IMG/VR virus record: IMGVR_UViG_3300040751_002061
Location: 1-21,726 of that record
DNA: 21,726 nt
Direction: 5' to 3' (one strand)
From: a virus
In this document: positions 5,526 through 12,690 of the stretch, piece by piece
Numbering within the stretch: position 1 is the first letter of the stretch
How the letters are laid out: each line of letters opens with the position of its first letter
Program-made: the position numbers and the translations under genes
Notes under the pieces: model-generated
Database searches by the model: none
What the model was told of the DNA's origin: nothing
The model's input: the letters and a program-made list of their open reading frames with translations, nothing else

Positions 5526-6053
5526 ATGAGCGACAAACAATCATTACACGATATAACGAACGCAACAAGAGAATTACAATCTATACTTGATAATCTGAAG
5601 TTTGAAGATTTGACAGACGATGTAAAAGCAATTCAAAAGCAAGCAATTCTGGACAGTTTAGAAGGGCTAGGGTTAGAGCAAAAGCTGGAGGCATATTGTC
5701 AGGTAATTGCAGAAAAAAAAGCAAACAACGATTATTTAAGTGCTGAGATTGCAAGGTTGCAAAAACGTAAAAAGAGCAATAATACTGTTAGAGAGTGGTT
5801 ACGTGGTAATATACAAGCTGCATTAATTGCAGTGGATAAGCAAAAAGTAGACACAGGGCTTCATAAAATCAGTATTACCAAGCGTACATCTTTAGAGATA
5901 GATTATGATGCACTGGCAGAGCAAGGTATACCAGAGGTGATATACAAGCCAGCAGTTATTGATGAAACAGCTACCAAAAAAGCAATACAAGATTTAGGTA
6001 TAGAGATTGATGGAGTTCAAGAAGTAGAAAAAACAAGCATAAGAATTACATAA
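5526..6053 (+). CDS. Gp157-family siphovirus protein
   Basis: A 175-residue protein of the siphovirus Gp157 family, recognised by its long N-terminal helical half (residues 1-95, with the coil segment CQVIAEKKANNDYLSAEIAR, then LQKRKKSNNTVREWLRG) and the conserved KVDTGLHKISITK and VIYKPAVIDETATKKAI segments. The family often sits beside SSB and recombination genes in phages and has been associated with phage-resistance phenotypes in streptococci, but its reaction is unknown. The start is at 5526, not 5514, because the earlier ATG is part of the GGAGATAA ribosome-binding site. It overlaps the next gene by one base. Confidence 0.85.
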   Translation: MSDKQSLHDITNATRELQSILDNLKFEDLTDDVKAIQKQAILDSLEGLGLEQKLEAYCQVIAEKKANNDYLSAEIARLQKRKKSNNTVREWLRGNIQAALIAVDKQKVDTGLHKISITKRTSLEIDYDALAEQGIPEVIYKPAVIDETATKKAIQDLGIEIDGVQEVEKTSIRIT

Positions 6054-6535
6054 TGACTGGAAAAGAAAACACAGAAAGAAATATCAAGAATGCACTGTTA
6101 GACGGTGCATTCTACTATTTACAAGATAAAGAATGGCAAAACAACACCATATTTAGCAAGGTAATATCAAGCAAAGAAACAGCAGAACATATGTTGTTTG
6201 AATGCTTGCAACGTGTAGGCATAGAGGAGTTTAAACAGCACGCTAGAAGCCTTGGCGGTGTAGATTTAAACAAAATAGCAAATAACTTGCAGCGTGATTA
6301 TGCAATCGTATTATATTATTTGTGCAATGACTTGCACGAGCTGACAGTTAAAGAAACTAGAAAATCAATTATGCATAGATTTGGGTGGGATAGTCAAGAT
6401 TTGAGTAATTGTGTACAGCAATTCAAATCTCACATTAACAAACAATTCAAAAGGGATAATTACCCAATCATGTTAGAAGTCTTTCAAAAGTTAGTTACTC
6501 CGAACAAGGGGCGACCTAAAAAAATAACTCTATAA
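6053..6535 (+). CDS. hypothetical protein coupled to Gp157
   Basis: A 160-residue, mostly helical protein of no recognised family. It ends in a basic tail (NKGRPKKITL), suggesting nucleic-acid contact. It overlaps the Gp157 gene by one base and so is probably translated by reinitiation. No metal or nucleotide-binding motif is visible. It is the last gene before promoter P4. Confidence 0.6.
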   Translation: MTGKENTERNIKNALLDGAFYYLQDKEWQNNTIFSKVISSKETAEHMLFECLQRVGIEEFKQHARSLGGVDLNKIANNLQRDYAIVLYYLCNDLHELTVKETRKSIMHRFGWDSQDLSNCVQQFKSHINKQFKRDNYPIMLEVFQKLVTPNKGRPKKITL

Positions 6536-6539
6536 ACTA

Positions 6540-6568
6540 TTGACAATTAATCTTCATTTATATATATT
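6540..6568 (+). promoter_or_regulatory. promoter P4 (TTGACA-N17-TATATT)
   Basis: TTGACA at 6540-6545 and TATATT at 6563-6568, spacer 17 nt. The leader contains a small AGGG/CCCT hairpin and then AATGGAGATAAT ahead of ATG 6617. It is closely similar to P5 and P6. Confidence 0.75.
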
Positions 6569-6616
6569 AATGCGTATCAAGAGGGAATAACCCTTATTTT
6601 ATAAAATGGAGATAAT

Positions 6617-7801: not shown

Positions 7802-7815
7802 ACACTAAAAAAGTG

Positions 7816-7844
7816 TTGACAATCTAAACTCAATTATATATATT
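7816..7844 (+). promoter_or_regulatory. promoter P5 (TTGACA-N17-TATATT)
   Basis: TTGACA at 7816-7821 and TATATT at 7839-7844, spacer 17 nt. AACACT (7801-7806) and AGTGTT (7812-7817) form an inverted repeat that runs into the -35 box. Its spacer and leader closely match those of P6. Confidence 0.75.
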
Positions 7845-7888
7845 ACTTATCTCAAGACGGAAATACTTACTAATCAAATGGAGATAAA

Positions 7889-8417: not shown

Positions 8418-8426
8418 AATAAAGTA

Positions 8427-8455
8427 TTGACAATCTAACCGCATTCATATATATT
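8427..8455 (+). promoter_or_regulatory. promoter P6 (TTGACA-N17-TATATT)
   Basis: TTGACA at 8427-8432 and TATATT at 8450-8455, spacer 17 nt. The spacer shares ATCTAA and the TATA end with P5. The transcript would begin with the inverted repeat at 8456-8485. Confidence 0.75.
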
Positions 8456-8485
8456 AGTAAGTATTGAAAGGAGATAATACTTACT
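8456..8485 (+). promoter_or_regulatory. 5'-end hairpin with SD-like loop
   Basis: AGTAAGTATT (8456-8465) and AATACTTACT (8476-8485) are perfect inverted repeats around GAAAGGAGAT, which includes an AGGAG. The hairpin would lie at the 5' end of the P6 transcript. It may protect the mRNA or hold an extra ribosome contact site. P5's leader keeps only the right arm. Confidence 0.7.
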
Positions 8486-11786: not shown

Positions 11787-12185
11787 ATGAGATTTGACGT
11801 ACAATTTATTAAATACAGAGGTGAAAGTGTTGTAGTTGATTTTAGCATTGCACATCTTGCTAACGACCCTACTGATGCAACAGTATATGCTGACCCTGTT
11901 TTCTTATTGTTAGATGGTAGCAATAAGATTTTAGTAAACACGACTGATACAATTTCTAATTCTAACAACCAATATTTAGGTTATACTTACCATGGCGTAA
12001 CTATCAACGACAACCAAGCATTTAGCAATTACAATTTTATTGTTAAGCAAGCAGTTTCTTTGCTTTCAAAAGAATCCAGCAATTACATTTTAGATATTTA
12101 TTTCCAGCATTTAGTACATACTGATTACACAATTATAAAGCGTATCGTAATGACGTTTGATAGCTCCTACACTTTTTCGCAGTAA
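11787..12185 (+). CDS. hypothetical protein in fibre-like region
   Basis: A 132-residue protein predicted to be largely beta-strand (FDVQFIKYRGESVVVDFSIA, later DPVFLLLDGSNKILVNT and YNFIVKQAVSLL). It resembles small structural proteins placed next to phage fibre genes, but I do not recognise a family. It starts two bases after the open frame at 11626-11784, lacks a strong ribosome site and is followed by promoter P9. Confidence 0.65.
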   Translation: MRFDVQFIKYRGESVVVDFSIAHLANDPTDATVYADPVFLLLDGSNKILVNTTDTISNSNNQYLGYTYHGVTINDNQAFSNYNFIVKQAVSLLSKESSNYILDIYFQHLVHTDYTIIKRIVMTFDSSYTFSQ

Positions 12186-12193
12186 AACAAATA

Positions 12194-12222
12194 TTGTAAT
12201 AGCAACAAAAACAAGGTATAAT
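12194..12222 (+). promoter_or_regulatory. promoter P9 (TTGTAA-N17-TATAAT)
   Basis: TTGTAA at 12194-12199 and a perfect TATAAT at 12217-12222 with a 17-nt spacer. Transcription should begin near 12228-12230, exactly where a GC-rich structured leader begins. Confidence 0.7.
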
Positions 12223-12227
12223 TACAA

Positions 12228-12314
12228 GGCGTCCTACTCTTAGCGGGGGAACGCTAGAATCGTTGGCTAGCTGGGCGTACTTTTAACTCAACGGATACTA
12301 CAACGAGGTATACA
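12228..12314 (+). ncRNA. GC-rich structured leader RNA, possible RBS-controlling element
   Basis: About 87 nt starting at the predicted 5' end of the P9 transcript, much richer in GC than its surroundings. An outer stem GCGTCC (12229-12234) with GGGCGT (12273-12278, two G-U pairs) can enclose a TAGCG/CGCTA hairpin (12241-12245 with 12252-12256; GGGGAA loop). TCGTTG (12260-12265) can pair with CAACGA (12301-12306), overlapping the GAGG ribosome site at 12305-12308, or with CAACGG (12289-12294). GCTAG (12253-12257) with CTAGC (12267-12271) is an alternative. No known riboswitch class was recognised. Confidence 0.5.
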
Positions 12315-12614
12315 ATGATAGCCACATATATTCGATATGTTATCAATGCTAATTTAATAGTAAATAACACTTACAAATTAAATTTATCTAACAAACAAAT
12401 AGCCACACTATCTGGCAATGCATGTATAGCAGTTATAGGTGGCATAGATTACAAGGGTGAAAGTTTTAGTTCCCTTCGGTTGTTTAAAAGTGAATCACTC
12501 GCTGAAAAGTACATTGTTGACTTATTAAGTGGAGAAAGTCCATATACTTATGTATACGTACAAATACAAGAGATTGCACAAAAAGCGTATAACGAGAGCA
12601 AAGGCAAAATATAA
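12315..12614 (+). CDS. hypothetical protein under structured leader
   Basis: A 99-residue protein of no recognised family, with beta-like segments (YVINANLIVNNTYKLNLSNK) and ACIAVIGGIDYKGESF in the middle, ending in a helical YNESKGK. The start has GAGG 6 bases upstream, inside the structured leader, so its translation may depend on how that RNA folds. It is the only gene between P9 and the packaging-site-like region. Confidence 0.65.
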   Translation: MIATYIRYVINANLIVNNTYKLNLSNKQIATLSGNACIAVIGGIDYKGESFSSLRLFKSESLAEKYIVDLLSGESPYTYVYVQIQEIAQKAYNESKGKI

Positions 12615-12630
12615 TCAAAGAATATAATAA

Positions 12631-12690
12631 AAAAGGTACTCCCAGACCTATGGGTAGGCGTTGGGGTTTATATTCCGACCCCGACCTTTT
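12631..12690. other. GC-rich inverted-repeat block, possible cos/terminator
   Basis: AAAAGGT (about 12631-12637) and ACCTTTT (12684-12690) form an outer inverted repeat. Inside it are CCTA/TAGG around TGGG and a TTGGGGT/ACCCCGA stem with a 10-base loop (12661-12684, including one G-U pair). The block lies between an unknown gene and the small-terminase gene and is unusually GC-rich. The right side has only four T; on the minus strand the stem is followed by a run of six T. Besides a terminator it could be the cohesive-end nicking region, by its place ahead of the small-terminase gene. Confidence 0.45.

Follow-up and report, generated by a model that had tools for sequence, protein, structure and literature searches.

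The int-alpA RNA class (Rfam RF02996) is named for its position between the genes int and alpA, and C4 (RF01695) is a released 77-nt RNA that acts in trans. C4 of phages P1 and P7 and CI of phage P4 give immunity between like elements. In homing endonuclease genes of the T4 type (I-TevI, segB and mobE), an RNA hairpin hides the ribosome site (PMC2988022). Here we describe a leader RNA that resembles each of these systems in part. It lies in an IMG/VR contig of 21,726 nucleotides, the whole of which is called the window. Comparison with its relatives makes it quite probable that the leader is a divergent int-alpA relative and acts as a self-contained switch on translation of the gene that follows.

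The leader and its surroundings

The window derives from a tailed phage that has a GpA terminase of the lambda type, and the closest annotated phages are Vibrio phages, with approximately 40% protein identity. The leader sits between a 132-aa open reading frame (ORF; 11787-12185), itself downstream of a tail-fibre-like gene, and a 99-aa ORF (12315-12614) near a likely cos site. Protein searches with either ORF found no relatives in IMG/VR, and the 99-aa product matches phrog_17343, a small cyanophage protein of unknown function. The parts of the element are as follows.

12194 to 12222, plus strand: sigma-70 promoter TTGTAA-17 nt-TATAAT, driving the leader
12229 to 12234, plus strand: 5' arm of stem P1, GCGUCC, covarying with 12273-12278
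12235 to 12251, plus strand: conserved core UACUCUUAGCGGGGGAA, invariant within the subfamily, much of this being enforced by the scan pattern
12237 to 12248, plus strand: hairpin H1, CUCU-UAGC-GGGG, inside the core
12253 to 12271, plus strand: hairpin P2, GCUAG-AAUCGUUGG-CUAGC, with covarying arms and a loop that forms the antisense element
12273 to 12278, plus strand: 3' arm of P1 (P1'), GGGCGU, pairing fully with 12229-12234
12288 to 12294, plus strand: copy 1, UCAACGG, complementary to the P2 loop and coevolving with it, about 8 nt past P1
12296 to 12312, plus strand: possible ribosome-site hairpin, AUAC...GUAU, with copy 2 in its predicted loop
12301 to 12308, plus strand: copy 2, CAACGAGG, likewise complementary to the P2 loop and coevolving with it, and overlapping the Shine-Dalgarno sequence
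12315 to 12614, plus strand: putatively controlled gene, 99 aa (phrog_17343 match, E 3.5e-13)

The promoter, with its 17-nt spacer, scores 10 of 12 and is the best in the 3 kb scanned. Within the P2 loop, the antisense element UCGUUG (12260-12265) is complementary both to CAACG at 12289-12293 and to CAACGA at 12301-12306, the latter running into the GAGG Shine-Dalgarno sequence. These features, together with the outer stem P1, had been noted in a preliminary description of the locus and hold up well. A hairpin with copy 2 in its loop can be drawn in most relatives with varied stem sequences, each of them weak (mean z -0.9).

Two further observations concern the phage itself. A GC-rich hairpin region at 12630-12690 (z -1.9) is a probable cos site or genome end, since two independent contigs start exactly at the equivalent of position 12666 and related Vibrio phage records start slightly upstream of the same next gene. 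In addition, a promoter-like module TTGACA..TATATATTA stands before small ORFs in three copies (6531-6569, 7807-7845 and 8418-8456), is also found in the related contig L005, and is a second repeated control module of this phage.

Covariation of the stems and coevolution of the loop

Relatives were gathered by scanning IMG/VR with an exact 16-base core pattern, which biases the sample towards an invariant core and builds in part of its apparent conservation. The scan returned 35 stretches, and the element is present in all except L016 and the degenerate L022. The core matches in L016 and L049 are due to chance. A blastn search added Oceanospirillum phage vB_OsaM_PD0307 and phage MW202520, so that after removing duplicates we had 32 elements, namely the window and 31 relatives, two of these in the named phages. 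A loosened core, GCGCCTACCN(5-9)GGGGAAAA, regained the known members and gave six new matches, all attributable to chance and devoid of the shared plan, and a search of plasmids for the element found none. The decayed module of L022 (1609-1650) consists of a promoter and the first half of the RNA joined to an apparent HNH gene fragment.

The common order is a sigma-70 promoter, P1, UACYYUUAGCGGGGGAA, P2, P1', copy 1, copy 2 and a start codon, with CUACYYUUAGCGGGGGAA as the conserved hairpin region. In 22 of 31 elements a hexamer resembling a -10 box ends 4-5 nt ahead of the nominal 7-bp P1, and the transcript therefore very probably starts at or just before P1. L019 and its duplicates deviate from the plan, with a tRNA-Pro gene directly after the RNA and no evident copies 1 and 2, and L035 and L037 carry poor copies of the loop complement. 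The L019 locus (5923-6067) runs from the RNA module through the tRNA-Pro gene to an HNH gene.

Folding of the window leader by itself is uninformative, with a minimum free energy of -22.4 against -21.5 +/- 3.2 in shuffled sequences (z -0.27). Taken alone, this might favour chance self-complementarity in a functionless GC-rich intergenic patch, but the comparative data refute that idea and we give it almost no credence. Among 31 aligned sequences, window included, 86.7% of cells are paired compared with 65.6% in shuffles, and P1 and P2 together show 121 two-sided changes against 48.5 +/- 4.8 in shuffles, with all slid registers far worse than the true register in the pairing test. Two-sided changes occur at six of seven pairs in P1 and at five of six in P2. 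H1 is paired in all 31 sequences, but since its changes are confined to G-C/G-U, covariation is of little help for this hairpin among them; its sequence differs, and is still paired, in Escherichia coli int-alpA RNAs and in a second element of the L023 phage. We retain H1 and P2 in place of the inner UAGCG-GGGGAA-CGCUA hairpin of the preliminary description, which is fully paired in only one of the 31 aligned sequences, the window itself. An exact search with that GGGGAA hairpin gave two matches, both inside coding genes and both chance.

The loop changes in step with its targets. The leader of L005 is approximately 80% identical to that of the window across 133 nt, rising to 94% in the promoter and first half, and precedes an unrelated gene, and between the two leaders UCGUUG has become UUGUUG while both downstream CAACG copies have become CAACA. 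For 21 representatives, we compared the duplex energy of each loop with its own copies and with the copies of other members. The mean is -6.1 kcal/mol for own copy 1 against -2.0 when swapped (z -10.4), and -8.1 kcal/mol for own copy 2 against -4.5 (z -9.3), and the own loop-copy value was matched in none of 100,000 reassignments. Of 29 elements (L019, L035 and L037 being left out), 28 have a copy 2 that overlaps the Shine-Dalgarno sequence; the linker that separates P1 from copy 1 spans 6-12 nt (median 9), and the median spacing between copies is 8 nt. Comparison among relatives shows that both P1 and P2 are formed and that the loop complements two copies at fixed spacing, the second on the ribosome site. 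It is because P1 and P2 covary and the loop coevolves with both copies that we count the observation as real.

Cargo genes and proposed mode of action

An HNH, endonuclease-VII-like or GIY-YIG endonuclease gene lies downstream in 24 of the 32 elements (by Pfam and PHROGs), or in about 25 if the gene behind L025, which resembles a damaged endonuclease copy, is included. These endonucleases come from several different families in many unrelated phages, which argues that the RNA is a portable module. Within the window clade, which comprises four contigs (window, L005, L015 and L017), the same RNA precedes different genes, although those behind L005 and L015 resemble each other. Of the other cargo, the L014 gene has a weak match to primosomal proteins, and the L035 and L045 genes have no family matches. 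In a literature search covering few subscription journals, we found no link of this element or of int-alpA RNA to endonucleases, and a description elsewhere may exist.

We favour autoregulation as the way in which such a module would act. Copy 1, being made first, could pair with the P2 loop to give a cis pseudoknot in which the ribosome site stays accessible, whereas pairing of the loop with copy 2, on its own or another transcript, would block translation. Competition between these two pairings would hold expression of the cargo, in most cases a homing endonuclease, at a low level or set its timing, much as C4/CI antisense RNAs do. The cis pairing is tight, with 6-12 nt for copy 1 to bridge the distance between the foot of P1 and the P2 loop. 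The regulatory proposal of the preliminary description, that exclusive pairings include one over the ribosome site, finds backing in the covariation and coevolution data even as its GGGGAA hairpin does not.

A serious possibility, to which we would give somewhat less than even chances, is that the RNA works mainly in trans, as do C4 of P1 and CI of P4. The P1-P2 part might be freed by processing or termination and act as an antisense RNA on any transcript that carries copy 2, thereby giving immunity between like elements. The plan is the same as in C4/CI, where the second of the hairpins enclosed by P1 also bears the antisense loop and the target lies at a ribosome site; Rfam types int-alpA as an sRNA; and one phage carries two diverged modules with different loops (L023, 12390-12447 and 8148-8206, each ahead of an HNH-like gene). 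However, no terminator was found after P1' in the window, and the constant linker to copy 1 suggests intramolecular pairing. Our estimates for trans action and for the autoregulatory switch overlap because loop-target pairing is common to both.

It is also conceivable, if rather improbable, that the core UACYYUUAGCGGGGGAA binds a metabolite, an ion or a host protein that chooses the loop's partner copy, making the element a riboswitch. The alternative pairings are near-isoenergetic and the conserved core is long, but the conservation is largely enforced by the scan pattern, the H1 sequence changes in the more distant elements noted above, and the cargo genes have no metabolic theme in common.

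Returning to the antisense switch, we offer a broader extension, which we hold to be less likely than not. The module might be a portable, reprogrammable RNA immunity device on phage homing endonuclease genes that silences its own and like cargo through the loop, with joint change of the loop and its two targets creating a new orthogonal specificity. Related modules, including int-alpA in P4-like elements, could then form a large heteroimmunity system. Even in its narrower form, the proposal offers a testable mechanism for a bacterial Rfam family without an assigned function, and the comparison shows that one portable, putatively controlling RNA module is common to unrelated types of free-standing homing endonuclease gene. 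Moreover, the naturally reprogrammed loop-target pairs provide a compact set for testing the control of translation by alternative pairing.

Relation to known RNA classes

The window has no match in all of Rfam, riboswitch classes included, and none to RF02996 up to an E-value of 10. Its relatives L034 (48.7 bits), L045 (45.9 bits) and L033 (37.8 bits) do score above the RF02996 gathering cut-off of 35.8 bits, and L044 and L038 match below it. A covariance model built without the window clade recovers the window at 36.6 bits (E 5e-8) and members of int-alpA from E. coli at up to 31.4 bits, and the second L023 element has an int-alpA-like core before another HNH-like gene. The preliminary description recognised no known class, but a related class does exist, although its Rfam model misses the window.

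The element has the int-alpA architecture of P1, a short hairpin, a GAAA-type junction, a second hairpin and P1', and the loop of the second hairpin is complementary to downstream sites, the second on the ribosome site. In location it departs from the class, as the window leader does not lie between an integrase gene and alpA. By the Rfam threshold and by gene neighbourhood, the window element is not an int-alpA RNA; judged by architecture and by chained similarity, it is a divergent, unannotated relative. In seven E. coli genomes, the int-alpA RNAs occupy the interval from int to the following gene. They have a copy 1 together with a shorter copy 2, which falls on the ribosome site of that following gene and matches over only about five bases. 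We propose the two-copy loop-target feature, which is absent from the Rfam model, as a trait of int-alpA RNAs.

The resemblance to int-alpA thus lies in two hairpins enclosed by P1, the first one short and the second bearing a loop complementary to the tail past P1. The differences are that Rfam files RF02996 as an sRNA under a model that lacks the pseudoknot and stops before copy 2, whereas the module here has its own promoter and precedes cargo genes, most of them for HNH homing endonucleases.

Membership in C4 is rejected by its covariance model, as the window does not match RF01695 while the P4 CI region does at 74.9 bits, and models from the present element class have no match in the P1 or P4 immunity regions. 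In both C4/CI and this leader, the RNA is closed by P1, forms part of the controlled gene's leader and carries its antisense element in a hairpin loop, and C4 likewise has two target sites, one of them near the ribosome site in phage P1. Nevertheless, the sequences differ, the stems of C4/CI are longer, and phages P1 and P4 have one target site upstream of the RNA.

Finally, the T4-type hairpins also place an RNA structure over the ribosome site of a homing endonuclease gene (PMC2988022), and this known control fits the idea that homing endonucleases are held down by the leader described here. Those are plain hairpins relieved by promoter choice, whereas the module in the window and its relatives would rely on a portable antisense loop and two competing targets.
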